DNA of 36,813 bases. It comes from Gammaproteobacteria bacterium. GTDB lineage: Bacteria; Pseudomonadota; Gammaproteobacteria; Steroidobacterales; PWYM01. The stretch spans positions 1 through 36,813 of the forward strand of contig PWYM01000188.1 in assembly GCA_003567855.1 (NCBI GenBank), in the 5' to 3' direction. Below, in pieces: positions 1,664-28,540 of this stretch (positions are counted from its first letter, which is position 1; each line of letters opens with the position of its first letter). The position numbers and the translations under genes were made by a program. Below the pieces are notes generated by a model, which worked only from the letters and a program-made list of their open reading frames with translations, was not told the DNA's origin and did not search any database.

Positions 1664-2677
1664 CTACGGCTGGCCGGAGCTGACGACGCGCTGTTCTATG
1701 GCACCGAATATCGTGTGGCCGCCGGCATCGAGCATCTCGATGCGAACGCGGTCACCGAACTTCAGGAAGTCGCTGCGCGGTTCGCCGTGCAGCAGCGTCT
1801 CGACGGTGCGCTGCTCGGCAAGGCAGGAATAGCCCACGCCACCCTCGGCTACGGGTCGACCGGGTCCGCCGTCGAGGCGGTTCGAGACAGTGCCCGAGCC
1901 GATGATCGTGCCCGCGCAAAGGTTGCGCGTACGTGCGGCGTGCGCGATCAGGCGGGCAAACGAAAAGGTCATGTCGACGCCGGCATCGGGCCTGCCGAAG
2001 AGGTCGCCATTGATGTGCGAGACGAGCGGCAGATGCAGCTTGCCGTCACGCCACGCATCGCCGAGTTCGTCAGGGGTGACGGCGACGGGTGAGAACGCGG
2101 TCGCCGGCTTCGACTGATAGAAGCCGAAGCCCTTGGCGAGTTCGCCGGGAATGAGCTTGCGCAGCGACACGTCGTTGAGGATTACCACGAGCCGCACGTA
2201 ATCGAGCGCGCGCTCGGCGGGGGGGCCCATCGGCACGTCATCGGTGATCACGCCGATCTCGCCTTCGAGGTCGATGCCGTACGCCTCGTCTGGCACGACG
2301 ATGTCGTCGCAGGGGCCGAGCAGATCATCGGAGCCGCCCTGGTAGATCAGCGGATCCTCCCAGAATGACGGCGGCATTTCGGCGCCGCGCGCGCGACGCA
2401 CGAGCTCGACATGGTTCACGTACGCGCTGCCGTCGGCCCACTGGAAGGCGCGCGGCAGCGGCGCGGCACAGTCGGTGGGCTTGAACGCGAAACCCTCGAC
2501 CTCGCCGCTTTCCAGCGCCGCGTGGCGTGCCGCGAGCGCCTCGTGGCAGCCGGTCCAGTCGTCGAGCGCAGCCTGCAGCGTGGGGCGTATGTCGCTCGCG
2601 CTCGCGGCGCGGGCCAGATCGCGCGTGACGACGAGCAGTTCGCCGTCACGGCCGTGTTTTCTGCTGGCAAGCTTCAT
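1664..2677 (-). CDS. fahA: Fumarylacetoacetate hydrolase family protein
   Basis: 337 residues, belonging to the fumarylacetoacetate hydrolase family. Members cleave fumarylacetoacetate to fumarate and acetoacetate, the last step of tyrosine/homogentisate catabolism. The metal-binding region EAYGIDLEGEIGVITDDV is visible near the middle, followed by VVILNDVSLRKL and a C-terminal GTIIGSGTVSNR segment. The ATG overlaps the stop of hmgA by four bases (ATGA at 2674-2677), so the two genes are translationally coupled. This context favours fumarylacetoacetase over other reactions of the broad FAH family. A maleylacetoacetate isomerase gene, which normally completes the pathway, is not in the window. 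Confidence 0.87.
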   Translation of the reverse strand: MKLASRKHGRDGELLVVTRDLARAASASDIRPTLQAALDDWTGCHEALAARHAALESGEVEGFAFKPTDCAAPLPRAFQWADGSAYVNHVELVRRARGAEMPPSFWEDPLIYQGGSDDLLGPCDDIVVPDEAYGIDLEGEIGVITDDVPMGPPAERALDYVRLVVILNDVSLRKLIPGELAKGFGFYQSKPATAFSPVAVTPDELGDAWRDGKLHLPLVSHINGDLFGRPDAGVDMTFSFARLIAHAARTRNLCAGTIIGSGTVSNRLDGGPGRPVAEGGVGYSCLAEQRTVETLLHGEPRSDFLKFGDRVRIEMLDAGGHTIFGAIEQRVVSSGQP

Positions 2678-3819
2678 TTCTTCTCCCTGTCGTGTGCGGC
2701 GCGCCAGCTGTCGACGTAGTCGGCGCGCTCGGTTTCGGAACCAGCGGCGCCGATATCCAACGGGTCACGCGTGTCGACCATCACCGCGTATTCTTCGGTC
2801 GCCGGCTTGCTCTGCTGGAGCATGTTCTTCAGCGCACCGGGATGTGGCCCGTGGGTGAAGCCCCCGGGGTGCAGCGTGACCATGCCGGGGTGTATGCCGT
2901 CGCGGCTGAAGAAGTCGCCGTCATGGTAGAACAGCACCTCGTCGTAGTCGTCGTTGCTGTGAAAAAACGGCACCTTGAGTGCGCCGGGATCGGTTTCGAA
3001 CGGACGCGGCGCGAACGTGCACACGACGAAACGCTCGGCGATGAACGTGGTGTGTGCCGACGGTGGCACATGGTAGCGGTGGCTCATCAGCGGCCGGATG
3101 TCGCGCACGTTGATGCGGCACACGCTCAGGTCGCCATGCCAGCCGACCGCGTCGAGCGGGTTGTACGGGTAGGTGATCACCGACACCTCGTTGCGACGCT
3201 TGACGCGGACCTGCCAGTGGCGCTCGTCGTTCTGCTGCGTACGAAAGGCCTCGTCCATCGCGGGCACGTCGAGCATCGCCGGGTCGAAGATCGCGTGCGG
3301 ACCGACCAGGCCTTTTTCCGGCAGCATGTAGTGGTCGTTGGTCGCCTCGATCAGCAGCGCGGTGAGCTTGTCGTCGCAGTCGAGTCGCCACATCGTGCCG
3401 CGCGGGATCACGACGTAGTCGCCGGCTTCCAGCGCGAGGTGCCCATAGTCGCAGTAGAGTTCCGCCTCGCCGCGGTGCAGGAACAGCAGCTCGTCGCCAT
3501 CGGCGTTGCGGGCGAGATGGTCCATCGACCCCGACTGGTGCCAGAACCGGTAGCGCACGTGCGCGTTGTACAGCAGCTCGCGGGCCGACCACGGGCCGCC
3601 CGTATCGGCGCCCAGCGTGGTGAGATCGAACGCGCGTGGCCGCAGCGGGCCCTCGAAGCCGATCCAGCCGGTCGGCGGGCGCTGGTGATAGAAAAACGCG
3701 GCGGGCCCGAAGAAGCCTTCCTTGCTGACTTCCCGTTCGTAGGTGCCTGCGGGCAGGTCGGCGTGCGCCTGCCGTGACGCCCGGCCCTCTACGTGCGGAT
3801 AACTGATGAATTTTTTCAT
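2674..3819 (-). CDS. hmgA: Homogentisate 1,2-dioxygenase
   Basis: 381 residues. The ATG at 3819 is preceded by AGGAG, so an in-frame upstream start is not needed. The cupin-fold enzyme uses Fe(II) to open the ring of homogentisate to maleylacetoacetate. The C-terminal half carries the likely iron site: His287 and Glu294 in FFHSNDDYDEVLFYHDGDF, and His323 in GGFTHGPHPGA. The His-to-Glu spacing is seven residues, one more than I recall for the human enzyme. At 381 residues it is shorter than the roughly 430-445 usual in Pseudomonas and animals, which points to a separate bacterial clade. It is the first gene of the hmgA-fahA pair. A candidate operator lies in its upstream region. Confidence 0.87.
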   Translation of the reverse strand: MKKFISYPHVEGRASRQAHADLPAGTYEREVSKEGFFGPAAFFYHQRPPTGWIGFEGPLRPRAFDLTTLGADTGGPWSARELLYNAHVRYRFWHQSGSMDHLARNADGDELLFLHRGEAELYCDYGHLALEAGDYVVIPRGTMWRLDCDDKLTALLIEATNDHYMLPEKGLVGPHAIFDPAMLDVPAMDEAFRTQQNDERHWQVRVKRRNEVSVITYPYNPLDAVGWHGDLSVCRINVRDIRPLMSHRYHVPPSAHTTFIAERFVVCTFAPRPFETDPGALKVPFFHSNDDYDEVLFYHDGDFFSRDGIHPGMVTLHPGGFTHGPHPGALKNMLQQSKPATEEYAVMVDTRDPLDIGAAGSETERADYVDSWRAAHDREKK

Positions 3820-3854
3820 GGTCACGGTGGCTCCTGACCAGAACGGGGGGGCGA

Positions 3855-3872
3855 TAGTTTCACATGTAACTA
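3855..3872. promoter_or_regulatory. Candidate operator between hmgA and the dehydratase gene
   Basis: Inverted repeat TAGTT-N8-AACTA within the 137-base divergent region between hmgA and the PLP enzyme gene. It is AT-rich in a GC-rich background. Its size and form resemble MarR-type operators, but the regulator is not identified and could act on either gene. Confidence 0.4.
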
Positions 3873-3956
3873 ACGAGGGCGCAAACGCGGCCCGCACGCC
3901 GTACACTTGGCGCGCGCCGCGTCCGGGCGGTTCCCGGCATTGTCACGGAGTCACGG

Positions 3957-15419: not shown

Positions 15420-17711
15420 ATGGTCGAGCAACACAACAGCGTGACTAAGCGCGCGCCGGGCAGCCTCGGGCTGCGGCGTCAGGTCGCGATTCTCTGCGGC
15501 GCCTCGTGGGTCGCACTTGCGCTGCCGATGGCGGCTGCCAGCGCGCAGCAGCAACAGCAGCAGCAGACCGCGCAGCGCGGGATGCTCGATGAGGTGGTCG
15601 TCACCGCGCAGCGTCGCGAAGACTCGATCCAGGACGTGCCGATCAGCGTGACCGCGTTCAGTAGCGAGGAGATCACTCTCGCCAACATCAAGGGTGTCGA
15701 TGACTTCTTCTATCGCACGCCCAACGTCAGCTTCACGCAGGGTGGTTCGCGCGACCGCCGCGAGCTGAGCATCCGCGGCGTGACGAACCAGGTTTCGCGC
15801 GACTACGACGTGCGTCCCGATTCGTTCGGCTTCTACATCGACGAGTTCAACGTCGTGCAGGGCACCGTGAATCCGCCGATTCTCGACATGGAGCGCATCG
15901 AGGTGCTTCGTGGCCCGCAGGGCACGGCATTCGGGCGAAACGCCGTCGGTGGTGCCATCAACCTCGTCACCCGCAAGCCCGATAACGACTTCTTCATGGA
16001 GAACTCGATCGGCTACGAGCGCTTCAATACCATCGACGTGCAGTCGATCCTGAACATCCCGCTGATCGAGGACACGCTCGCAGTGCGCTTCGCCGGCAAC
16101 TACCGTGAGACTGACGGACATATCCGCAACATCAACGTGATCGGCGGCGGTAACGATTCCAAGTACCAGTACCTGCGCGGCACCGTGCGCTGGACGCCCA
16201 CCGACCGGTTCACGCTCGACGTGCAGGGCACCTTCGTCAACGAGGAAGTGGGCATGCGCGAGGGCGTGCCGTCGGGCGTGATGTCGCCGTTCGGTTCGTT
16301 CCTGTTCGGCCCTGAGGCTAATCCCGACGGTGTCGGCTTCTATCCCGAGAACCGCAGCCGCGTGAACTTCAACCGCGGCCAGAACGTCGGCAACGAGTTC
16401 TACTACGTGATGGCGCGTGCCCAGTACGACTGGGACGACGTGTCGCTGATCAGCATCACGGGTTACATCGACAAGGACGAGTTCCTCGTCGGTGACATCG
16501 ACGGTGGCAGCATCGACGCCTTCTACGAGACCAAACCCCTGTTCCGTAATTCGTTCACCCAGGAGCTGCGCCTGATTTCCAGCCTGGACGGACGCTTCAA
16601 CTGGTCGGGCGGTGTGATCTTTGCGCGCGACCGCGGCAGCCAGGACCAGTTCACCTTCGCCGGTAACGAGGCGCCGCTGGGGCTGCAGCCCGACCAGCAG
16701 GTTACCTCGTCGGGGTCAGAAGGCGAAATGAAGAGCTACGCCGCCTACGGCGAGATCTTCTACGACCTCACCGACCGCCTGCAGCTCAAGCTCGGCGCAC
16801 GGCTGAGTCGCGAGGAAGTCGACCAGCTGACGTTCCGCACCTCGGGTGACCCGCCGGTGATCACCGCCTTTGCTGACGGTTCCACCAAGTACACCGACTT
16901 TTCACCGTCGATGTCCCTGACTTACAACATTACCAATGATGTCTCGGTCTACGGCACCGTGTCTCGCGCCTACAAGAGCGGTGGCGTTCAGACGAACATT
17001 GCGCTGGCTGCAGAGGGTGAGCGCGAGGACTTCGACGAGGAGGTTCTCTGGAACTACGAAATCGGCGTGAAATCCGAGCTGTTTGACCGTCGCCTGCGCC
17101 TGAACGCCGCCGCGTTCTACATGGACTGGGAAGACATGCAGGTGAACAGCGCGGCCGGCGTGCTTACCGAGGGTGGCGACATCAGCTTCCTGTCGGCGAT
17201 TCTCAATGCTGCCGAGGCCCGCAATTACGGCTTTGAAATCGACGGCCAGGCGCTGGTGACCGACAGCCTCGTCGTGGGCTTCGGCCTGGGCTACCTGAAC
17301 GCCAAGTTCGACAACTTCGAGGACGCGTTCGTCGAGGGGCAGTTCGTCGACCTTTCCGGCCAGGTGATCCCGAACTCGCCGCGCTGGACCGCCAACGCGA
17401 ACATCCAGCAGAACTTCGAGCTGGGCAACGGTCGTGAGGCGTATGTCCGGGGCGAGATATTCGGACGCAGCAGCAACAAGTCCGAGATCAACTCGCTGGT
17501 GTTCGGTGGCTTCCCGTACGAAGTGCCCGGCTACGGTCAGTTCAACCTGCGTGGTGGCATCCAGACCGAGCGCTGGGACGTGACCGCCTTCGTCGAGAAC
17601 CTTTTCGACAACAACTACTACACCAACTCCTACCAGAAAGCCTTCTACGGCGGCATGCACGTCGTGCCCTCGTTCCGCAACTGGGGCATTCGTCTGACGG
17701 TACGGCTCTGA
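15420..17711 (+). CDS. TonB-dependent outer-membrane receptor, first paralog
   Basis: 763 residues. The ATG at 15420 follows CCAGGAGA. A signal sequence ends in AAASAQ, followed by a run of seven Gln and then a TonB-box-like segment LDEVVVTAQRRE. The plug domain shows QDVPISVTAFSSEEI, ELSIRGVTN and IEVLRGPQGTAFGRNAVGGAINLVTRKP. The barrel runs to a C-terminal aromatic strand (NWGIRLTVRL). There is no N-terminal signalling domain, so it is a pure transporter. It imports an unknown ligand across the outer membrane with TonB-ExbBD energy. It is clearly paralogous to the receptor at 21019-23295: shared segments include VNPPI.D.ERIE.LRGPQ, IGGGNDS.YQY and VGMREGVPSGV. The peptidase gene begins three bases after its stop. 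Confidence 0.93.
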   Translation: MVEQHNSVTKRAPGSLGLRRQVAILCGASWVALALPMAAASAQQQQQQQTAQRGMLDEVVVTAQRREDSIQDVPISVTAFSSEEITLANIKGVDDFFYRTPNVSFTQGGSRDRRELSIRGVTNQVSRDYDVRPDSFGFYIDEFNVVQGTVNPPILDMERIEVLRGPQGTAFGRNAVGGAINLVTRKPDNDFFMENSIGYERFNTIDVQSILNIPLIEDTLAVRFAGNYRETDGHIRNINVIGGGNDSKYQYLRGTVRWTPTDRFTLDVQGTFVNEEVGMREGVPSGVMSPFGSFLFGPEANPDGVGFYPENRSRVNFNRGQNVGNEFYYVMARAQYDWDDVSLISITGYIDKDEFLVGDIDGGSIDAFYETKPLFRNSFTQELRLISSLDGRFNWSGGVIFARDRGSQDQFTFAGNEAPLGLQPDQQVTSSGSEGEMKSYAAYGEIFYDLTDRLQLKLGARLSREEVDQLTFRTSGDPPVITAFADGSTKYTDFSPSMSLTYNITNDVSVYGTVSRAYKSGGVQTNIALAAEGEREDFDEEVLWNYEIGVKSELFDRRLRLNAAAFYMDWEDMQVNSAAGVLTEGGDISFLSAILNAAEARNYGFEIDGQALVTDSLVVGFGLGYLNAKFDNFEDAFVEGQFVDLSGQVIPNSPRWTANANIQQNFELGNGREAYVRGEIFGRSSNKSEINSLVFGGFPYEVPGYGQFNLRGGIQTERWDVTAFVENLFDNNYYTNSYQKAFYGGMHVVPSFRNWGIRLTVRL

Positions 17712-17714
17712 GGC

Positions 17715-19646
17715 GTGACGGGCCGAAGCCCGGACGCCAAGGCAGTCTCAGCGGCAGCGGCCGGTATCCTCTGGATGCTGGCCCTGCCGCTGGCTTCTTG
17801 CGGTGGGGATCCGCCTCCCGAGGAGGCGGAAGTCCACCTGCAAAGGTATTCTCAGGCGCCGTCCGCGACGCCTTTGCATGCACCCGGCGATGGCCGTAAA
17901 ACCGATCCGCGTTTTCTCGCGTTTGCTGACGAGATCTACCACGCACTGATCGAGCACAGTCCGCTGATGGCGGCCCGGCTCGGCGTCGACCCGGCCGGTG
18001 ACCACTGGGACGATCTCTCCCCGGAAGCGCTGTCGCGCCAGCATGATTTCCTGCTATCGGCGCGTGAGCGCCTGACGCGCGAATTCGATCCCGAAGCACT
18101 CGACCCACGCACGCGCCTGCAGTACGACGTGCTGCTGGAGGAACTCGAGTTTCGCATCAAGCGTGAACACGAGTGGCGCGATCACGTCTATCCCCTGAAC
18201 CAGATCGTCGGGCTGCACCTCGATGTGGCCAACACGCTGATCAACCGCCACCGCATCGCCTCGGCCGCCGACGCGGAGGCCTACATCACGCGCCTGCGTC
18301 GCGTGAGGCCACTGTTCGAGCAACTCGTCGAGCGGATGAAGGCTCACGAGGCTGCCGGTGTGCTGATGCCGGCACCCGTGTATCCACGGCTCATCGGCGG
18401 CGTCGAGCGGCTCATGTCGGGCGCGCCATTCGATGATGACGATGATCACCCGATCTGGCAGGATTTCCAGCGCAAGCTGGCCGAATCCGATATCGACGCG
18501 GACGAACGTACGCGGCTGCGTCGCGATGCCCGGGATGCCCTCATGGGCCCATTCCTCGACGGCTACCGCATGTTGCACGAACGACTCGAGGACGAGGCGG
18601 CTCGCACGGAAGTCGACGGCGGCGTGTGGCAACTTCCGGACGGCGACCGCTTCTACGAGTTCGCCGTTCGCCTGTTCACTACCACGGAACTGACGCCAGA
18701 CGAAATCCACGACCTGGGGGTCGAGCACGTCGCGCGCATTCATGACGAAATCGGCGCCATAATGGCGGCGGTCGACTTCGACGGGGATCTGTCAGCGTTC
18801 TTTGAGTTCATGCGCAACGACGACCGCTTCTACTACCCGGACACCGACGCGGGCCGCGCAGCCTACCTGGCCCACGCACGCGACCTCATGGGCGCCATCG
18901 CCGCGCGCATGGACGAGATCGTGCCCGAGCCGCCACGTTCGCCGCTCGAGGTCCGCCGCTTCGAGGCTTACCGCGAACACTCGGCACCCCGGGGGATGTC
19001 GGAGCCCGGTTCGGCCGATGGCTCGCGCCCGGGCGTCACCTATCTCAATCTCGCGAACATGCGCGATGCGCCGACCTACGCACTCGAGGCGCTGCTGTTC
19101 CACGAGGGTATTCCGGGCCACCACCTGCAGAAGGCGCTGATCAACGAAAACCCGCAGATCCCTGAGCTGCGCAAGATCGACATCTGGTGGCTGTACGGTG
19201 CGCACGTCGAGGGCTGGGCGCTGTACGCCGAGTATCTGCCGCGGGAGATGGGGTTCTACGAGGATCCGTATTCGGACTTCGGTCGGCTGTCGATGGAGCT
19301 CTGGCGCGCGGTGCGGCTGGTGGTCGATACCGGCCTGCATGCAAAACGCTGGACACGCGAGCAGGCGATCGATTACATGGTCGAAAACTCCCCGGCCTCA
19401 CGCGAAGGCAGCGCGCGCGAGATCGACCGTTACCTCGTGGTGCCGGGGCAGGCGACCGGGTTCATGATCGGCATGCAGGAAATCCTTGCATTGCGCGACC
19501 GCGCCCGGGATGCGCTGGGTGATGCGTTCGACATACGCGAGTTCCATCAGGTCACGCTCGAGCACGGCTACCTGCCGCTGTGGGCACTGGGCGAGGCCGT
19601 GGATCAGTGGATCGATGAAGTACACGCGAGACGGGAAGGCTCATGA
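17715..19646 (+). CDS. DUF885 family metallopeptidase-like lipoprotein
   Basis: 643 residues with a GTG start at 17715, three bases after the receptor stop, so translation is probably coupled. A signal with LPLASC suggests a lipoprotein acylated at Cys29. The DUF885 domain fills the rest: an acidic helical N-terminal half, then LLFHEGIPGHHLQKALINENP at about 460-480 with His463, Glu464 and His469-His470. A following segment, YGAHVEGWALYAEYLP, may supply a third metal ligand. The His-Glu-x-x-x-Gly-His-His arrangement is the family's predicted zinc site. Many members are exported and are thought to be carboxypeptidases or dipeptidases, but few have been tested. Its place between receptor and amidohydrolase suggests trimming of imported peptides or amides. 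Confidence 0.88.
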   Translation: MTGRSPDAKAVSAAAAGILWMLALPLASCGGDPPPEEAEVHLQRYSQAPSATPLHAPGDGRKTDPRFLAFADEIYHALIEHSPLMAARLGVDPAGDHWDDLSPEALSRQHDFLLSARERLTREFDPEALDPRTRLQYDVLLEELEFRIKREHEWRDHVYPLNQIVGLHLDVANTLINRHRIASAADAEAYITRLRRVRPLFEQLVERMKAHEAAGVLMPAPVYPRLIGGVERLMSGAPFDDDDDHPIWQDFQRKLAESDIDADERTRLRRDARDALMGPFLDGYRMLHERLEDEAARTEVDGGVWQLPDGDRFYEFAVRLFTTTELTPDEIHDLGVEHVARIHDEIGAIMAAVDFDGDLSAFFEFMRNDDRFYYPDTDAGRAAYLAHARDLMGAIAARMDEIVPEPPRSPLEVRRFEAYREHSAPRGMSEPGSADGSRPGVTYLNLANMRDAPTYALEALLFHEGIPGHHLQKALINENPQIPELRKIDIWWLYGAHVEGWALYAEYLPREMGFYEDPYSDFGRLSMELWRAVRLVVDTGLHAKRWTREQAIDYMVENSPASREGSAREIDRYLVVPGQATGFMIGMQEILALRDRARDALGDAFDIREFHQVTLEHGYLPLWALGEAVDQWIDEVHARREGS

Positions 19647-20923
19647 TGAATACCGTGGTCAGGATGGTTAAGGTAATGGTCGTGCTGGCGCTTGCATTGC
19701 CGGCACTGGCTGGTGCGCAGGTGCAGGCGATCGTTGGCGCCGGGCTCGTCGACGTGATCGAAGGCCGCGCTATAGAGAATGCTGTCGTCGTGATCGAGAA
19801 CGGGCGGATCACGGCCGCGGGCCCGGCGGCCGAGGTCAGTATTCCCGATGGTGCCGAACGCATCGACCTCGAAGGCCGCTGGCTGGCGCCTGGCCTGATG
19901 AACATGCACGTCCACCTGGGGTTGATACTGCCGGGCCTGATGACGGCGCAGCATGCCGGCGAGAGCGATGCGGAACTCACACTGCGCATGGCCGACAACG
20001 CGAAAAAGTCGCTGCACTCGGGCGTCACGACAATCCGCCAGCCAGGCGACAGCCGTCATGCCGATATTGCGCTTGGTCGAGCCATAGACCGCGGTGTACT
20101 ACCCGGTCCGCGTATCGTCTCCTCCGGTGAAATGGTCAACATTACCGGGGGCCACGGTGCCGGCACCGAGATGCACCACGACGGCCCTTACGAATTGCGC
20201 AAGGCCACTCGCTACCAGATCCGTGCTGGTGCGCAATGGATCAAGATCGCCATCTCCGGCGGCATCGCCACCCCGGTGGGCGGCATCGGCCAGCCCATGA
20301 TGACGCGCGACGAAATCGAGGCGGTGGTCGACATCGCCCAACGCCACGGACTCAAGGTGACCGCGCATTCGGGGTCCGCCGAGGCCACGCGTGTCGCCGT
20401 CGAGGCGGGTATTCACGGCGTGGAGCATGGCTATTTCCTCGACCGCGACGTGCTTCGACTGATGCGTGAACGCGATGTCTGGTACGTGCCGACCATCGTG
20501 GTCAGTCAGCCCGGGACGTTCGATTTCTTTGAACGTATCGGCTCGCCGCCGTGGTACATGGAGCGCGTCTACGAGGTCGGGCAGGACCACTGGCGGGCAC
20601 TGGAGATGGCCATCGAGGAAGGCGTGAACATCGCGCTCGGCTCAGACCAGTTTCCCTACGAGCCCAACGATGGCACTACGGCCACGATCCGCGAGGCCGA
20701 ATACTACGCCGAGGCCGGTATGTCGAACCTCCAGGCGCTGCAGGCGGCGACCATCCAGTGCGCGCGCATGCTCGACATGGAAGACGACATCGGCTCCATC
20801 AGTGTAGGCAAGTACGCCGACATCGTCGCGCTCGAGGCCAACCCGCTAGAGGATATCTCGGCGCTGCGCACGCTGGGCTTCGTGATGAAGGAAGGTCGCG
20901 TGTATCGCAACGATTGGGAGTAG
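19643..20923 (+). CDS. Exported amidohydrolase, Xaa-Pro-dipeptidase-like group (paralog 1)
   Basis: 426 residues. The ATG at 19643 overlaps the DUF885 stop. A signal sequence (VMVVLALALPALAGAQ) sends it to the periplasm. Binuclear metal-site residues are in order: HVH at 89 and 91 (GLMNMHVHLG), a probably carboxylated Lys201 in WIKIAISGG, His242 in VTAHSGSAEA, His262 in GVEHGYFLD and Asp335 in LGSDQ. ITGGHG at about 167-172 is typical of the group that includes the Sgx9260-type peptidases cleaving Xaa-Pro, Xaa-Lys or Xaa-Arg dipeptides, and some amide-toxin hydrolases. The specific substrate cannot be read from sequence. Two close paralogs lie at 25933 and 27212. All end in DISALRTLGFVM followed by a short VYRNDWE tail. 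Confidence 0.88.
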   Translation: MMNTVVRMVKVMVVLALALPALAGAQVQAIVGAGLVDVIEGRAIENAVVVIENGRITAAGPAAEVSIPDGAERIDLEGRWLAPGLMNMHVHLGLILPGLMTAQHAGESDAELTLRMADNAKKSLHSGVTTIRQPGDSRHADIALGRAIDRGVLPGPRIVSSGEMVNITGGHGAGTEMHHDGPYELRKATRYQIRAGAQWIKIAISGGIATPVGGIGQPMMTRDEIEAVVDIAQRHGLKVTAHSGSAEATRVAVEAGIHGVEHGYFLDRDVLRLMRERDVWYVPTIVVSQPGTFDFFERIGSPPWYMERVYEVGQDHWRALEMAIEEGVNIALGSDQFPYEPNDGTTATIREAEYYAEAGMSNLQALQAATIQCARMLDMEDDIGSISVGKYADIVALEANPLEDISALRTLGFVMKEGRVYRNDWE

Positions 20924-21018: not shown

Positions 21019-23295
21019 CTACATCGCGCCGAACCGGTACGTGGCCCTCAGTCCGAAGGTGCGGAAGGAGGGCTCGATATGCAGGCCGCCGGTGAATGCC
21101 TTTTCGTAGGCATTGGTGTAGAAGTTCCGATCGAAGACATTCTCGGCATACGCCACCAGTCGCCACCGTTCGAACTCCATGCCGGCGCGCAGATTGAAAT
21201 AGTTGTAGCTGGGCACCTCCCATGGGAAGCCCTCGCGGACCATCGCGCTCGTGGTTGGCCTGATCGAGGCCCGGTACGTCCACTCGGTGCGCACCCAGGC
21301 ATCGATCGTCGGCGTGAGGGCAAAGCTGTACTCGGCGTCAGCAGAGAAGGTCCACTTCGGTGAGTTGGGAATGGTGCGACCGTCGAGCACCACATTGGCA
21401 CTGTCTATGAATGCGACGAAGTTCTCGAACTTCGCATTCAGGTAGCCGGCGCCCGCATTCACGAGCAGGTTGTCGGTGATCAGCGCGGTGAGTTCAAGCT
21501 CGACGCCCTTGGAGGTGGCGGAGTCGGCGTTGTCTGTTCCGCCGAAAAGCACGAAATTGCCGTCGGCGTCGATCAGGTTCTCCTGGAACGCGACCTGCAG
21601 GTCTTCCCAGTCCATGTAGAACACCGCAAGGTTCAGCAGTAGACGCCGATCGAGGAACTCCGACTTGATTCCTACTTCGTAGTTCCAGAGCGTTTCCGGG
21701 TCAAAGGACTCGCGTTCCGGGTTTGGCGCGATCTGCACGCCGCCTGACTTGAAGCCCTTGGACACGGTGCCGTAGACGGAGACCAGCTCGTTGACCGTCC
21801 AGTTCAGCGCGAATCTCGGAGAAAAATCGGTGAAAGTGTCTTGCGCAGAGACGACGGTCTCCTGTACGCCGGTCTGTCCGATAACGGTCGTACGTATCTT
21901 CTCCTCGCTGTAGCGGCCGCCCACCGAAACGGTGACGGTATCGGTCAGTGCGTAGTCGATCTGGCCGAACAGCGCCCAGCTGTCACTTTCGAACTCCGAA
22001 TCGGTGCTGCTGATCACGACGCCCTCGGGAATGCCGAAGATCTGCTCGGCTCCGACGAGCGTGCGGTTCCATGTCGAGCCCTCATCGTCTGCGACGATGC
22101 CGCCGACGCTCCACTGCAGGCGCGCATCATCGGTGTTCTGCAGCCGCACTTCCTGGCTGATGCTGTCGCGCTTGATGTTCCGGAACTCGTTGAAGAAGTC
22201 GCGACTGCCGCCGTCGATGTCGCCGGCGAGGTAGAACTTCGAGTTGATGTACCCGGTTATGCTCGTCAGCAACAGGTTGCCGGTCTCGTAGTCGATGCGA
22301 AGCACACCGTTCCTGAAGTTCGTGCCAACACGTTGGGGGTTGTTGAAGTTGGTGCGGTTACGGTTCTGCGGGAAGAAGCCCACTTCATCTATCCACGGGT
22401 CTGAGCGGCCATCACCCGTTCGGTCCGGGAGAAGCCCCGGGTAGAGCACGTCGCCAGCGAAGGTGGAGAAGACGCCGGAAGGTACGCCCTCGCGCATGCC
22501 TACGTCCTCGCCGACGTACTGCCAGGTCGCGTCGATGGTCAGGTTGTCGGTAGGCGTGAAGCGCAGCGACGGGCGGATGTACTGGTACTCCGAATCGTTA
22601 CCGCCACCGATGGGGTGGATGTTCTTGATGTTGCCGTCGCTCTCGAGGTACTTGGCGTTGATGCGCATCGCGAGGCGCTCGTCAATGAGCGGGACGTTCA
22701 GGACGCCCTCGGTGTCGATGGTGTTGAAGCGCGAATAGTCGACCATCACCGAGCCGCCGAATTCGTTTTCGGGTTTACGCGTTGTGATGCTGATGCCGCC
22801 GCCGAGCGCATTGCGCCCGAAGTAGGTGGCCTGCGGTCCGCGCAGGATCTCGATGCGCTCGATGTCCATGATCGGCGGATTTACGGTGCTCCCTGCAACA
22901 CTGAAGTCGTCAACGTAGAACCCTGTGGTGGATGAACCGACGAATCCGAGAAAGTTCGTGACGCCGCGGATGCTGATCTGGCGCCTGGAGCGTGCCCCGT
23001 TGCTGATGTAACTTGCATTGGGCGTGCGTTGCATGTAGTCGGAGACGTCGCGGAACATGTTTTTCTCGATCGAGTCCGCCGTAAATGCCGACAGCGCGAT
23101 CGGTACGTCGCGCAGGGACTGGTCGCGGCGTTGCGCGGTGACGACGATCTCCTCGATACCGGACGCTTCCTGCGCGCCTGCAGGCAACGGATGACCTGTG
23201 AGCAGCCCCGCAGTTGGCCACAGACATGCTGCCGCCAACGTTTTTCCGGCGCGCCGTGTACGCGCTCCCGTCTTCGCACGATCAGTGTTGCTCAT
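21019..23295 (-). CDS. TonB-dependent outer-membrane receptor, second paralog
   Basis: 758 residues. The ATG at 23295 is preceded by GGGAGG. A twin-arginine-like n-region (RTRRAGK) leads a signal sequence ending near LPAGAQ. A TonB box IEEIVVTAQRRDQSLRDVP follows, then plug motifs ISIRGVTN and IEILRGPQATYFGRNALGGGISITTRKP, and a beta barrel ending in FRTFGLRATYRFGAM. It resembles the receptor at 15420 along its whole length, including IGGGNDSEYQY, VGMREGVPSGV, FYMDWEDLQV and the C-terminal AYEKAFTGGLHIEPSFR. The ligand is probably of the same class but with different detail. It is divergent from the esterase-VOC gene and shares its control region, which carries motif copy 2. Confidence 0.92.
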   Translation of the reverse strand: MSNTDRAKTGARTRRAGKTLAAACLWPTAGLLTGHPLPAGAQEASGIEEIVVTAQRRDQSLRDVPIALSAFTADSIEKNMFRDVSDYMQRTPNASYISNGARSRRQISIRGVTNFLGFVGSSTTGFYVDDFSVAGSTVNPPIMDIERIEILRGPQATYFGRNALGGGISITTRKPENEFGGSVMVDYSRFNTIDTEGVLNVPLIDERLAMRINAKYLESDGNIKNIHPIGGGNDSEYQYIRPSLRFTPTDNLTIDATWQYVGEDVGMREGVPSGVFSTFAGDVLYPGLLPDRTGDGRSDPWIDEVGFFPQNRNRTNFNNPQRVGTNFRNGVLRIDYETGNLLLTSITGYINSKFYLAGDIDGGSRDFFNEFRNIKRDSISQEVRLQNTDDARLQWSVGGIVADDEGSTWNRTLVGAEQIFGIPEGVVISSTDSEFESDSWALFGQIDYALTDTVTVSVGGRYSEEKIRTTVIGQTGVQETVVSAQDTFTDFSPRFALNWTVNELVSVYGTVSKGFKSGGVQIAPNPERESFDPETLWNYEVGIKSEFLDRRLLLNLAVFYMDWEDLQVAFQENLIDADGNFVLFGGTDNADSATSKGVELELTALITDNLLVNAGAGYLNAKFENFVAFIDSANVVLDGRTIPNSPKWTFSADAEYSFALTPTIDAWVRTEWTYRASIRPTTSAMVREGFPWEVPSYNYFNLRAGMEFERWRLVAYAENVFDRNFYTNAYEKAFTGGLHIEPSFRTFGLRATYRFGAM

Positions 23296-23438
23296 TGGAC
23301 CTCCCTTGATGCGGCACCATGCCGGATGACCACGAACTCACTGGGACATGCGCAGGCGGGCGCCACGCCAGGCGCGCGCATCAAGGCGCGTCGACCGCGA
23401 GCAGACCATGGTTCGCCACGCTTCGGGCTCTCTTGTTG

Positions 23439-23501
23439 ACCCGTTGCTTTTCCCCGTGTCGACAGATTTCCTCCTATTTCGAAGAAAAAGCAATAACGGG
23501 T
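23439..23501. repeat. Long inverted repeat in the receptor 2/esterase control region
   Basis: Left arm ACCCGTTGCTTTT at 23439-23451; right arm AAAAGC-AAT-AACGGGT at 23486-23501, its complement except for a 3-base insertion. The arms are 34 bases apart. It may be a second regulator's paired site, or a hairpin in the receptor leader. Confidence 0.45.
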
Positions 23502-23513
23502 CCAGACAGTTAT

Positions 23514-23531
23514 ATTGCAGTCCACGCAACA
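23514..23531 (+). promoter_or_regulatory. Shared operator-like motif, copy 2
   Basis: ATTGC-N7-GCAACA with spacer AGTCCAC. It lies 18 bases before the esterase start and 219 bases from the divergent receptor start. A TATATT that could be a -10 box overlaps its left end. It matches copies at 14571 and 25750 in all fixed positions. Confidence 0.6.
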
Positions 23532-23549
23532 GCTTCCGGGGAGCACGTG

Positions 23550-24902
23550 ATGGATGAGTTTGTCCGTACAGCCAGGCGCGGCGTGGTTCGAGCTGCAGTG
23601 GCGTGCAGTCTCGTGCTCGGCCCGCTATCGCCCGCACCCGCGCAGGACATGTCGACGTACTACACCGTCCGCCATGCCGATCAGTTCGAAATCGACTGGA
23701 CGGGCTTCTATCGCGAGGGCAACCGGCGCACTGCTGATGCGCGCACCCGATTCCCCCATGTCAGCGACCTCGCCTACGGGGGCGACCCCAAGCAACGGCT
23801 TGACCTGTACCTGCCGGACGACGCTGATGGCGCTCCAGTGTTCCTGTTTCTGCACGGAGGCGGCTTCGGCGAGGGCGATCGCGCACACTACGGTTTCGTC
23901 GCCGAGGTGCTGGCCGAAAACGGCGTGATTACCGCGGTGGCGAGCTATCGGCTTGGCAGTGGCGGCCACCTGTTCCCGGCCCCCCGCGACGACGCACGCG
24001 CCGCGCTTGCGTGGCTGCACGCCAACATCGCGACCCACGGCGGAGACCCGGAGAACCTTTACGTCGGAGGCCACTCCGCAGGTGGCCTGCTCGCGGCGGA
24101 TCTCGGTGCCGACACCAGGTGGCTGGACGACCATGCCGTGCCGCGACACGCGTTGCGCGGCATCGTGCCCGTCAGTGGACCTTACGACCTGCGCGGTGAT
24201 GATCGACCCGGCTACATAGACGCGTATGCACCGGACGCCGACAGCCGCGTCGCCGCAAGTCCACTGGCGACGCTCGGGCATCCGGCGCCGCTGGCGGTCA
24301 TCGCGACAGGCGAACGCGAACCCTCGCTGCACGCGACCGCCGAAGCCCTCGACCGGGCGCTGCGCGACGCGGGCACCTGTACGCGTCGACTGGTGCTCGA
24401 GTCGGCTGACCATGCCGACACCGCGCTTGCATTCGCCGTGGCCGACGGCATGCTTGCCGCGGCGATATTGCAGATGATCATGGGTGAGCAGATGTGCGTT
24501 CAGCCTTCACCGCCGCGCGAGTCGGTCGTATTCTTCTACTACGATGACCTCGACGCGGCACGCGACTTCTATGCGCAGCGCCTCGGCCTGGAGCCCACGC
24601 TCGAGATGGAATGGGTGACCATCTACCGCATCGGCCCCGGCAGTTCCGTGGGCCTCGTGCAGGACGGCCGGGGGTACCACTCGGTCGCCGAGGATCGCCC
24701 GGCGATGCTCAGCATCGTGATCGACGACGTGGACGGCTGGTATGAGCACCTGCGGGCGGCGGGCGTGCCGCTTCTGTCCTCTCCGCCGACGGCGGAGGAG
24801 GTCGCCGCGCGGGGTGAGGACGCACCCCCGATTCGCGGGTTCCTCGTCGAGGACCCGGGCGGCTACACGGTCGAATTTTTCAGCTGGCGCGCATCCGACT
24901 GA
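23550..24902 (+). CDS. Secreted esterase (alpha/beta hydrolase) fused to a glyoxalase/VOC domain
   Basis: 450 residues. The ATG at 23550 follows GGGGAG and gives a signal sequence (RRGVVRAAVACSLVLGPLSPAPAQ); longer in-frame starts lack one. Residues about 60-315 form a hormone-sensitive-lipase/carboxylesterase-type hydrolase: HGGGF at 102-106 for the oxyanion hole and nucleophile Ser176 in GGHSAGG. A late His lies in LESADHADTAL. From about residue 322 a VOC/glyoxalase-like module begins: VVFFYYDDLDAARDFYAQRLGLEPTLEMEWVTIYRIG, ending in FLVEDPGGYTVEFFSW. The hydrolase could open an ester or lactone and the VOC part bind or rearrange the product. The junction shows no frameshift. The fusion is unusual and the substrate is unknown. 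Confidence 0.85.
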   Translation: MDEFVRTARRGVVRAAVACSLVLGPLSPAPAQDMSTYYTVRHADQFEIDWTGFYREGNRRTADARTRFPHVSDLAYGGDPKQRLDLYLPDDADGAPVFLFLHGGGFGEGDRAHYGFVAEVLAENGVITAVASYRLGSGGHLFPAPRDDARAALAWLHANIATHGGDPENLYVGGHSAGGLLAADLGADTRWLDDHAVPRHALRGIVPVSGPYDLRGDDRPGYIDAYAPDADSRVAASPLATLGHPAPLAVIATGEREPSLHATAEALDRALRDAGTCTRRLVLESADHADTALAFAVADGMLAAAILQMIMGEQMCVQPSPPRESVVFFYYDDLDAARDFYAQRLGLEPTLEMEWVTIYRIGPGSSVGLVQDGRGYHSVAEDRPAMLSIVIDDVDGWYEHLRAAGVPLLSSPPTAEEVAARGEDAPPIRGFLVEDPGGYTVEFFSWRASD

Positions 24903-24984: not shown

Positions 24985-25704
24985 TTAACGCACCACGCGG
25001 TATTCGCGACCGTCCTCGAGCGCGAGCGATACGCCGTCGAACGTGGCCTGCAGCGTGACGTCGCGCAAGTTCGTTGCAGAATCGGGTGTCGCTTCCGACC
25101 AGCGGGTGACCTGCAGCTCGAGCTCGTTGCCATCCCGCGTGTAGGTGCCGTAGCCATTGACGGTGCCTTCGGACGTGCCCTGCACGAGGATGAAGTGGTC
25201 GTCGACGAGTGCGAATGCACCGCTCTCGATCGAGTAGACGCTGCCGAGCCCAGGCCCGACACGCTCGAAGGTCTGCACAGTACCGCTGCCAAACACCAGC
25301 GTGAGCTCGTCCCCGTCGCGCGATATCGTTAACTGATGCTCGTGATCGGCGCTGACGTCGAGCGGAGCATCCTGATCCGGTGCAACGAAGATCTGCTGGC
25401 GCGCGAACAGCGTCACCGAGTCCGCGTTGGCCGCGTACGGACCCGTATGCGCCATCACGCGTTGATCCTCGAACGGTTCACCGTCGAAGATCGACTGTTG
25501 CATGAACACGCCGTCGTGGAAAAGGAATATGCCGGTCAGTGGCATTTCGTCACCACCGCTGGTCGTAAGGCCGGTGTAGGCCCAGAGTCCGCTGACGAGG
25601 TCCTCGGCCGTGCCCGCACGCATCTCGTCGTCGGCCGGCGAGCAGCCCAGGATCAGCAGCAGGACGGCGCAGAGGGCCGCGAAACGCACGTAATAAGCTT
25701 TCAT
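24985..25704 (-). CDS. Lipocalin-like lipoprotein of unknown role
   Basis: 239 residues. The ATG at 25704 has GGGGAA upstream and starts a lipoprotein signal (ALCAVLLLILGCS) with acylated Cys21; an in-frame start 159 bases upstream would place non-signal sequence first. The mature part is beta-rich. It opens with EDLVSGLWAYTG, which recalls the G-x-W strand of lipocalin-like domains, then repeats strand-turn units such as GIFLFHDGVFMQQSIFDG and NGYGTYTRDGNELELQVTRW. I cannot assign a firm family. Its start is 46 bases from shared motif copy 3 and it is divergent from amidohydrolase 2. It is therefore probably part of the same regulon, perhaps as a periplasmic binder. Confidence 0.75.
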   Translation of the reverse strand: MKAYYVRFAALCAVLLLILGCSPADDEMRAGTAEDLVSGLWAYTGLTTSGGDEMPLTGIFLFHDGVFMQQSIFDGEPFEDQRVMAHTGPYAANADSVTLFARQQIFVAPDQDAPLDVSADHEHQLTISRDGDELTLVFGSGTVQTFERVGPGLGSVYSIESGAFALVDDHFILVQGTSEGTVNGYGTYTRDGNELELQVTRWSEATPDSATNLRDVTLQATFDGVSLALEDGREYRVVR

Positions 25705-25735
25705 ATCGTGTTCCCCATCGCAATTGATCTGCACT

Positions 25736-25830: not shown

Positions 25831-25932
25831 CGGCCGCCAGCGGCTCGTGCACGGTGCAGGCACCCGCGACCCGCGGCCAACCGGACAGGTCCGGGCCGGT
25901 CACGGTCCAGCCATTCGCGGGAGGGAAATCGA

Positions 25933-27207
25933 ATGCGCACAATTCTGATCACACTGTCATTTTTCCTGTTGACGGCAGTCGCCAGCCTGTCCGCTGAAGA
26001 GCGGCCGACGGTGCTCCGTGCCGCCGGCATGGTCGACGTGCTCGAAGGTCGGAGCATCCGGGACGCCGTTGTCGTTATTGAGAACGGACGTATTGCGGCA
26101 GCGGGTAATGCCGCCGATGTCGACGTGCCCGAAGGCGCGGATGTCGTCGACCTCGGCGACCGTTGGCTCGTGCCGGGCCTGATGAACATGCACGTACACC
26201 TCGGGCTTGCGTTGCCTGGCCTGATGGCCGCGCAACACGCCGGAGAGAACAAGGCGCAGCTCGTGCTGCGCATGGCCGACGTCGCGCGAGAGTCGCTGCT
26301 GTCGGGCGTCACGACGGTGCGCCTGCCCGGTGACCGTCGTCATGCCGATCTCGCGCTGCGCGAGGCGATCGAGCGCGGTACGCTGCCGGGCCCGCGCATC
26401 ATCTCGTCCGGCCAGGGCGTGGGCATCACGGGTGGCCACGGCTCGTCGCTCGAGTTCCGCAACGACGGCCCGTACGAGCTTCGCAAGGCCACCCGCTACC
26501 AGATCCGAGCCGGTGCCGAGTGGATCAAGATCTCGATCTCCGGTGGCATCGCCACGCCCGTCGGCGGCATCGGCGAGCCGCTGATGACGCGCGACGAGAT
26601 CGAAGCGGTCGTCGATATCGCCAACCGCCACGGCATCAAGGTCACCGCCCACTCGGGTTCGGCCGAGGCGACGCGCGTCGCCGTAGAGGCCGGCATCAGC
26701 GGTGTCGAACACGGCTATTTTCTGGACCGCGACGTGCTGCGCCTGATGCGCGAACGCGGCGTCTGGTACGTGCCCACGATCGTCGTCAGCCAGCCGGCCA
26801 CGTTCGATTTTTTCGAGCGCATCGGTTCGCCCGACTGGTACATGGAACGCGTCTACGAGGTTGGCCAGGATCACTGGCGTGCGCTCGAGATGGCGGTGGA
26901 AGAGGGCGTACTGATCGCGCTGGGTTCGGACCAGCATCCGCACGAGCCCAATGACGGCACCACCGCGACCATCCGCGAGGCCGAGTACTACGTGGAAGCC
27001 GGCATGACCTCGCTGCAGGCGCTGCAGGCCGCGACCATCCAGAGTGCGCGCATGCTCGACAAGGAAGACGAGATCGGCTCGCTTTCGCCGGGGAAATACG
27101 CCGACATCGTCGCCGTCGAGGGCAACCCCATCGACGACATCTCGGCGCTGCGCACGCTTGGCTTCGTGATGAAGGGCGGCAAGGTCTACCGCAACGACTG
27201 GGAGTAG
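25933..27207 (+). CDS. Exported amidohydrolase, Xaa-Pro-dipeptidase-like group (paralog 2)
   Basis: 424 residues. The ATG at 25933 follows GAGGGAAA and starts a clear signal sequence (TILITLSFFLLTAVASLSA). All predicted metal ligands are present: His87 and His89 in GLMNMHVHLG, Lys199 in WIKISISGG, His240, His260 in GVEHGYFLD and Asp333 in LGSDQHP. It is very similar to the paralog at 19643 over the whole length. Differences cluster near LPGDRRHADLALREAIERG and ISSGQGVGITGGHGSSLEFRNDG, which lie near the active-site mouth in this group. The next paralog starts five bases after its stop, so the pair forms one operon. It is predicted to be a periplasmic dipeptidase or amidase with a related but shifted specificity. 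Confidence 0.88.
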   Translation: MRTILITLSFFLLTAVASLSAEERPTVLRAAGMVDVLEGRSIRDAVVVIENGRIAAAGNAADVDVPEGADVVDLGDRWLVPGLMNMHVHLGLALPGLMAAQHAGENKAQLVLRMADVARESLLSGVTTVRLPGDRRHADLALREAIERGTLPGPRIISSGQGVGITGGHGSSLEFRNDGPYELRKATRYQIRAGAEWIKISISGGIATPVGGIGEPLMTRDEIEAVVDIANRHGIKVTAHSGSAEATRVAVEAGISGVEHGYFLDRDVLRLMRERGVWYVPTIVVSQPATFDFFERIGSPDWYMERVYEVGQDHWRALEMAVEEGVLIALGSDQHPHEPNDGTTATIREAEYYVEAGMTSLQALQAATIQSARMLDKEDEIGSLSPGKYADIVAVEGNPIDDISALRTLGFVMKGGKVYRNDWE

Positions 27208-27211
27208 GTCG

Positions 27212-28540
27212 GTGCGGCTCGCGCTGCTGGCCACGCTGCTGCTCGCCGCCGGTACGGTCTGTGCACAGACCGTAGTGCTGCGCGCAGCCGGGCTGGTCGA
27301 CGTCCTCGCCGGCGAGGCGGTTCCCGATGCCGTCGTGGTCGTGGACGGCGGGCGGATCGTTGCCGCAGGCCGGGCGGCGACCGTGGAGGTGCCTCAGGAT
27401 TCGCATGTCATCGACCTGGGTGACCAATGGCTGCTACCGGGTCTCATGAACATGCATGTGCACCTGGACCTGCTGCTGCCGGGGACGATGGCAGCCACGC
27501 ATGCGAACGAGAGCGAAGCGGAGCTCGTGCTGCGCATGGCGGACAACGCACACAGATCGCTGCTCAGTGGCGTGACGACGGTGCGCCAGCCGGCGATGTT
27601 CCCGTCACTAGCCGCGCGCGCCGGCCGGTTTACCGATCGTGCCACGATGCCGGACCGGCGTCGCGACGCCCGTCCCCCCGACGTCGCGCTTGCCCGGGCC
27701 ATCGAGCGCGGCGTGCTTCCCGGGCCTCGGCTGATCACTGCCGGGGAGATGGTCAACATCACAGGCGGCCATGGGGCCGCGGTCACGCCGCTGCACGACG
27801 GGCCATACGATATGCGCAAGGCCACGCGTTACCAGATCCGTGCCGGGGCCACGTGGATCAAGCTTGCGATTTCCGGCGGAATCGCGACACCGGTCGGCGG
27901 TATAGGCCAGCCGCTGATGACACGGGATGAAATCGAGGCTGTCGTCGACATCGCGGGCCGCCACGGAGTACGGGTCACGGCCCACGTGGGTTCGGCTGAG
28001 GCTGCTCGCGTCGCGGTCGAGGCCGGCGTGAACGGTCTCGAACACGGTTACTTCCTCGACCGTGACATCCTGCGACTGATGCGCGATCACGGTACCTGGT
28101 TCGTGCCTACGATTGTCGTCAGTCAGCCTGCGACTTTTGATTTCTTCGAGCGCATCGGTTCACCCGAGTGGTACATGGAGCGCGTCAGAGAGGTGGGTCG
28201 CGATCATTGGCGCGCGCTGGAGATGGCGATAGAGGAGGGCGTGAACATCGCGCTGGGTTCAGACCAGCATCCGTTCGAGCCCAACGACGGCACTACCGCC
28301 ACCGTCCGCGAGGCCGAGTACTACGTCGAAGCGGGCATGACGCCACTGCAGGCACTGCGCGCGGCGACGATCGATGCGGCGCGCATGCTCGGCATGGATG
28401 ACTCGCTTGGCGCGCTGTCGCCGGGTTTCGAGGCCGACATCGTCGCCGTCGACGGTAATCCCATGGAAGACATCTCGGCGCTGCGCACGCTCGGTTTCGT
28501 GATGAGGGAAGGCCGCGTCTACCGCAACGACTGGGAGTAG
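27212..28540 (+). CDS. Exported amidohydrolase, Xaa-Pro-dipeptidase-like group (paralog 3, with insertion)
   Basis: 442 residues with a GTG start at 27212, four bases after the previous stop. Signal sequence LALLATLLLAAGTVCAQ. Metal ligands are kept: His82, His84, Lys217, His258, His278 and Asp351. Relative to its two paralogs it has about 20 extra, Arg-rich residues at roughly 129-156 (within PSLAARAGRFTDRATMPDRR), where the others read PGDSRHADIAL or PGDRRHADLAL. This loop follows the GVTTVRQP strand near the substrate entrance and may change specificity. The frame stays open through it, so it is not a frameshift. It ends four bases from the convergent YfcC-type permease gene. Confidence 0.87.
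   Translation: MRLALLATLLLAAGTVCAQTVVLRAAGLVDVLAGEAVPDAVVVVDGGRIVAAGRAATVEVPQDSHVIDLGDQWLLPGLMNMHVHLDLLLPGTMAATHANESEAELVLRMADNAHRSLLSGVTTVRQPAMFPSLAARAGRFTDRATMPDRRRDARPPDVALARAIERGVLPGPRLITAGEMVNITGGHGAAVTPLHDGPYDMRKATRYQIRAGATWIKLAISGGIATPVGGIGQPLMTRDEIEAVVDIAGRHGVRVTAHVGSAEAARVAVEAGVNGLEHGYFLDRDILRLMRDHGTWFVPTIVVSQPATFDFFERIGSPEWYMERVREVGRDHWRALEMAIEEGVNIALGSDQHPFEPNDGTTATVREAEYYVEAGMTPLQALRAATIDAARMLGMDDSLGALSPGFEADIVAVDGNPMEDISALRTLGFVMREGRVYRNDWE

Follow-up and report, generated by a model that had tools for sequence, protein, structure and literature searches.

The first half of the protein studied here finds its best match, in sequence and in structure, in the feruloyl esterase 4zrs and the BD-FAE and hormone-sensitive-lipase-like esterases, with which it shares the fold, the HGGG and GHSAGG motifs and a conserved His. 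It differs from this group in having 25% identity over the fold, in having Glu257 where Asp is usual, and in carrying a VOC domain at its C-terminus. The VOC domain resembles in fold TioX, TnmS1-3, UcmS2 and MRD (Z 12.5-14.3), which bind without a metal, and it too lacks a complete metal site; those proteins, however, are single domains from antibiotic producers, have no hydrolase attached and are 19-24% identical to it. Bleomycin N-acetyltransferase 2zw4 offers the parallel of an enzyme followed by a VOC-like C-terminal part, through which it binds bleomycin; residues 180-301 superimpose on our VOC model with Z 12.9 and rmsd 2.7 over 115 aligned residues, but the enzyme is an acetyltransferase rather than an esterase, is not known to be exported and is 15% identical. 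A further fusion, in genome G108, resembles ours in that an apparently secreted hydrolase ends in a VOC domain of the same clade, although the hydrolase there is not an esterase but belongs to the amidohydrolases and is related to the one encoded at 25930-27207. A literature search over titles and the opening lines of abstracts, mostly outside subscription journals, returned no paper on such a fusion or cluster. Two ordinary domains of known families occur here in a new combination, and the fusion is real.

The fusion gene

The stretch of DNA analysed, referred to as the window, is the 36,813-nucleotide contig PWYM01000188.1 of a gammaproteobacterium of the order Steroidobacterales. The fusion gene in it has the following parts.

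23550..24902, + strand: whole fusion gene, 450 amino acids plus stop (single frame, Pfam, codon-position G+C)
23550..23642, + strand: apparent Sec-type signal peptide, residues 1-31, ending in LSPAPA before QD (read by eye from the sequence)
23643..24497, + strand: alpha/beta-hydrolase domain (Pfam, alignment, model, Foldseek)
24498..24521, + strand: short interdomain linker without a second signal peptide (sequence)
24522..24887, + strand: VOC domain, residues 325-446 (Pfam, alignment, model, structural matches)

From the ATG at 23550 to the stop at 24902 there are 450 codons with no internal stop, encoding first an apparent signal peptide, then a hydrolase of the alpha/beta type (PF07859/PF20434) and last a VOC domain with the complete fold (PF00903). 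This is the arrangement that an earlier note had read from the letters, and Pfam, motifs and models agree with it for the two domains. The mechanical open reading frame begins further upstream, at 23319. Third-position G+C drops over 23319-23543 (0.72, 0.64 and 0.40 in three 75-nt blocks) and lies at 0.72-0.92 in every interval from 23550 on; being steadily coding-like only from about 23550, it makes the start proposed there a sensible one.

The same note had raised the prospect of a sequencing error joining two genes near 24490-24520. We looked for one and found no sign of it in codon-position G+C, the in-frame third-position value staying at 0.78-0.88 across the junction (24390-24659). In the alignment the hydrolase half stops about where its single-domain relatives stop, and the VOC fold begins about 8 residues later, which leaves no space for a further exported protein to carry its own signal peptide. 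On these two grounds we rejected a frameshift, or a junction of two separate genes, at 24490-24520. In-frame ATGs are present at the start of the linker (24480-24494), one of which, at 24492, has GGTGAG just upstream and could start the VOC half as a product of its own; codons for Gly-Glu account for these letters just as well.

The hydrolase half

Residues 84-289 match alpha/beta-hydrolase families in Pfam, all above the curated cut-offs: Abhydrolase_3 (PF07859) with 60.8 bits against 25, BD-FAE (PF20434) with 59.7 against 26.8 and COesterase with 57.5 against 27. Profile score and full fold together make this half a member of Abhydrolase_3 / BD-FAE, while no NCBIfam family at all scored above its cut-off. 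Among the esterase equivalogs of that collection, such as LipP1, HaHSL and CHL_hydrolase, the best was LipP1 with 69 bits against 350. HGGG lies at residues 102-105 and GHSAGG at 174-179, with S176 as the nucleophile and H288 as the His; HGGG, S176 and H288 are conserved in relatives. Judging from the alignment, the acid of the triad is probably E257, a column that holds Asp in nine and Glu in one (L017) of ten aligned relatives.

The AlphaFold model of this half is a complete domain (pLDDT 90.1, pTM 0.90), and its best Foldseek match is 4zrs, a feruloyl esterase from a soil metagenome (E 2.2e-19), with a Pseudomonas lipase and, lower down, a kynurenine formamidase among further matches. Esterases acting on chloramphenicol also occur among the matches of this half. 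The two halves were modelled separately, without their mutual arrangement, since a whole-length alignment had placed esterase tails onto the VOC half. Viral contigs held 13 relatives of the esterase and none of the VOC domain.

The VOC half

PF00903 (Glyoxalase) matches residues 329-443 with 42.7 bits against a cut-off of 20.6, over profile positions 7-121 of 121, and this score and the paired beta-alpha-beta-beta-beta fold place the second half in the VOC superfamily. Its AlphaFold model is likewise a complete domain (pLDDT 86.4, pTM 0.80). The structural matches comprise metal enzymes, with GloA2 the highest at Z 14.4, GlxI at 13.3 and FosA and FosB at about 13, and binding proteins, with TioX at 14.3, TnmS2 at 13.8 and MRD at 12.5; TnmS1, which like TnmS2 is titled an antibiotic binder, TnmS3, UcmS2 and EhpR are also among them. 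As metal enzymes and binders match the model about equally, the fold alone leaves the function of the VOC half undecided.

The classical metal-ligand columns were placed by their spacing to a conserved Asp-Leu and by alignment with FosB, and we take them, partly from known structures, to correspond to V326, G368, M386 and E442. Only E442, one of the four, keeps the ligand residue, and the full His/Gln/Glu set of metal-dependent VOC enzymes (glyoxalase I, FosA/FosB, extradiol dioxygenases) is absent from the window VOC domain in this alignment. Across 13 aligned VOC rows the first column always holds V, I or T. Gly occupies the second in 12 rows, with Ala in the remaining one, and Met the third in 12 rows, with Leu in the other; the Glu of the fourth is invariant, as are W355, Y330 and Y331. 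The alignment with FosB puts the second His of that protein two columns before our second column, at a position where none of the 13 rows has His. The column preceding the first ligand column has Gln in six rows and His in one, so that shifting the alignment by one residue could bring a ligand back in those proteins; the window protein, which reads Ser-Val in the two columns, would gain none.

These residues bear on the possibility that the fusion unites two consecutive enzymes, the VOC half transforming the product of the hydrolase without a classical metal site. The fold of the VOC half is complete, metal-dependent enzymes are among its best structural matches, and the kept Glu and the invariant Tyr pair could serve a metal-free catalysis. 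We nevertheless consider such a second enzyme unlikely, given that three of the four classical ligand positions are replaced and that, as described next, the same VOC subfamily is found on an esterase, an amidohydrolase and a domain with no Pfam match, which fits a general binding part better.

Relatives and other fusions

The exact esterase-VOC pairing was found in no other genome, neither among 97 genomes searched with the whole protein nor in searches with the VOC half, which covered the order (396 genomes), the class (369), the phylum (398) and family f6 (107). These sets overlap, most of them include the window's own genome, and frames were read for the closer matches only. The earlier note had held that absence of the fusion from all relatives would speak against it, and by that rule this result does; since G108 joins a VOC domain of this clade to a different hydrolase, the pairing looks like a lineage-specific fusion rather than an artefact. 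The whole protein has matches in 82 of the 97 genomes (its own included), nearly all in the hydrolase half only, and within the window's genus the other four genomes have single hydrolases of the window type, with lipoprotein-like starts, and no VOC domain of the window subfamily. A scan of genome contigs gave 11 relatives, all of the VOC half only, in frames of 120-178 aa.

At E 1e-12 or better, the VOC half has matches in 23 of the 396 genomes of the order, where frames were read out at 13 VOC loci. In G108 (L067:8151-9725, minus strand) the VOC domain forms the C-terminus of an apparently secreted amidohydrolase, with PF01979 and PF00903 in one frame. The amidohydrolase part of that fusion is about 34 residues shorter in mid-domain than its window counterpart; either a true deletion or a fault of assembly may account for this. 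In the more distant members G289, G136, G209 and G089 (L071:8201-9409, L072:8101-9363, L073:7635-8873 and L074:7994-9430) the VOC domain follows a domain that appears to be exported and is some 270 residues long; in G289 this domain gave no Pfam match. The VOC domain stands alone in G201, G104, G120, G161, G263 and G152, mostly behind an apparent signal peptide, and the window's own genome has a second, single VOC gene on contig C125. Most of the close members read out start with apparent signal peptides, and the earlier generalization of VOC proteins as usually cytoplasmic does not fit this subfamily in the order.

The remaining matches in the order are frames of 267-362 aa, several with two VOC hits. 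Tandem two-VOC lipoprotein-like proteins were also seen, for example in G209 (L073:6528-7526), divergent from and adjoining the VOC fusion gene. Beyond the order sample, matches at 1e-18 were obtained in two of 368 other class-sample genomes and nine of 397 other phylum-sample genomes; seven frames from these 11 were read, one of them overlong and VOC-only at its end, and the other four open frames are 137-187 aa long. A tree of 21 VOC rows joins the window fusion, the G108 fusion and the single VOC proteins of G201, G104 and G120 in one clade (support 99/97), within which G108 pairs with the single protein of G201 (93/86). The window and G108 hydrolase fusions therefore look like separate events.

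The gene neighbourhood

The genes around the fusion are as follows.

15420..17711, + strand: second TonB-dependent receptor (Pfam, blastp)
17715..19646, + strand: DUF885 protein of the same neighbourhood (Pfam, blastp)
19643..20923, + strand: third amidohydrolase, a paralogue (Pfam, amidohydrolase search)
21019..23295, - strand: TonB-dependent receptor (Pfam, blastp)
24985..25710, - strand: small lipoprotein-like protein with no Pfam match (Pfam scan, genome search, blastp)
25930..27207, + strand: apparently secreted amidohydrolase of the Xaa-Pro dipeptidase / ochratoxinase type (Pfam, NCBIfam, searches)
27212..28540, + strand: second amidohydrolase, a paralogue (Pfam, amidohydrolase search)

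The three amidohydrolases are 78% identical over their aligned parts and lie within 9 kb, while other VOC genomes with a close-type amidohydrolase carry one each. By sequence they group with Xaa-Pro dipeptidase, arginine carboxypeptidase Cc2672 and ochratoxinase. A DcuC-type carrier is also encoded in the neighbourhood. The DUF885 protein was considered as an HExxH metallopeptidase and rejected, as the HExxH motif is absent. Genes of FAA-hydrolase type and homogentisate-dioxygenase-like genes, of aromatic amino-acid breakdown, are present at 1664-3906, about 20 kb from the fusion.

It could be argued that the VOC half captures a toxic compound which the hydrolase then inactivates, on the model of VOC proteins that bind bleomycin, mitomycin or thiocoraline. 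The structural matches to TioX, TnmS1-3, MRD and EhpR would agree with such protection or sequestration, as would the chloramphenicol-acting esterases among the hydrolase matches. The neighbourhood, however, is one of uptake and catabolism (TonB receptors, amidohydrolases, DUF885, the DcuC-type carrier), and no efflux or antibiotic-biosynthesis gene was found among the 19 window proteins scanned, which makes this explanation decidedly improbable.

Related clusters

Clusters were compared by blastp of the window proteins against the frames of the relatives' loci. G104 has, in order, a TonB receptor (65% identical to that at 21019-23295), an amidohydrolase (59%), an S9 peptidase, the VOC gene, the lipoprotein (49%) and a sodium symporter. 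In G120 the VOC gene has a double amidohydrolase on one side and an S9 peptidase on the other; next come an amidohydrolase (61%), a TonB receptor (66%) and a frame matching DUF885 in part, the lipoprotein being about 7 kb away. An SNF-family sodium symporter, 59-63% identical to that of G104 and matching PF00209 in G289, follows the VOC gene by a few bases in G289, G136, G209 and G263 (L071:6809-9409, L072:8101-10761, L073:7635-10244 and L076:8392-10254), four genomes of one family, three of which share a genus and so amount to few independent observations. The stretches examined by blastp in G201, G161, G089 and G152 held no amidohydrolase, lipoprotein or symporter marker.

In the same-genus genomes G001, G003 and G004 a TonB receptor (74-75% identical to that at 15420-17711) stands together with DUF885 and an amidohydrolase (79-80%); a single esterase of lipoprotein type lies about 8 kb from this core, and there is no VOC gene. 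G164, of another family, likewise combines receptor, DUF885 and amidohydrolase, with no VOC gene on its short contig. These four genomes indicate that the core consists of receptor, amidohydrolase and DUF885, and that the VOC domain is an addition. At 1e-60 the 12 VOC-bearing genomes give 22 amidohydrolase matches, 16 at 35-42% identity and six at 62% or more; the window accounts for three of the six and G104, G120 and G108 for one each, which lies about 2.5 kb from the VOC gene in G104 and G120 and is fused to it in G108. The close type is present in nine of 186 genomes of the order at 1e-100, so it also occurs without a VOC gene. The lipoprotein was found in four of 392 genomes (the window's, G104, G120 and G346), three of which have a VOC gene nearby; in two of the three others, G104 and G120, it is within about 7 kb of that gene, and in G346 it adjoins a DUF885 match about 9 kb from a close amidohydrolase, with no VOC gene. 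Genomes bearing the cluster are few, and some are sister genomes.

The exact pairing was seen in a single draft genome (302 contigs, 87.55% complete), which might raise the suspicion of a chance fusion with no functional link between the halves, or of a fault in assembly or sequencing. Either seems quite improbable in view of the even G+C across the junction, the lack of room for a second signal peptide, both domains being intact in the models, the relatives of the flanking receptor and lipoprotein that also lie near VOC in G104 and G120, and the separate hydrolase-VOC fusion in G108.

Discussion

The explanation we favour, at a probability of about one in two, is that of an exported hydrolase with a metal-free VOC binding domain, serving a TonB-linked cluster that scavenges peptides, amides or esters. 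The product of the fusion gene would be an exported two-domain protein, in which the first domain, a putative serine hydrolase of the feruloyl-esterase / kynurenine-formamidase-like group, would cut an ester or amide bond, and the second, a VOC fold without a complete metal site, would most likely bind the substrate or product and hold it or hand it over. A peptide-, amide- or ester-type compound would be taken up by the cluster through the TonB receptor; the amidohydrolases, and the DUF885 or S9 proteins, would cut it outside the cytoplasm, and the pieces would then be imported. Family names suggest that the substrates are peptides, N-acyl amino acids or comparable amides or esters, through the kinship of the amidohydrolases taken together with the S9, DUF885 and SNF-type symporter proteins. 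Of the two roles that the earlier note had envisaged for the fusion, a two-step reaction or sequestration of a product, the holding of a substrate or product is the one now favoured, whereas a metal-dependent second step is weakened.

The VOC domains that are joined to, or encoded beside, exported hydrolases in relatives suggest a shared helper part of a nutrient-scavenging cluster. A more specific and doubtful proposal is that the VOC domain without a metal site acts as an exported ligand holder between hydrolase and transporter, comparable to the binding proteins of other transporters, and that such a ligand-holding domain has repeatedly been attached to, or encoded with, the hydrolases of TonB-linked clusters and SNF-type sodium symporters. 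The interest of the locus lies in a VOC subfamily, poor in metal ligands, that is repeatedly joined to different exported proteins and placed in a scavenging cluster. If the favoured explanation is right, an extracytoplasmic role would fall to VOC proteins that would be annotated as glyoxalases or as bleomycin-resistance proteins, and the ligand of the VOC half may reveal the substrate of the whole uptake cluster of receptor, amidohydrolases and esterase.
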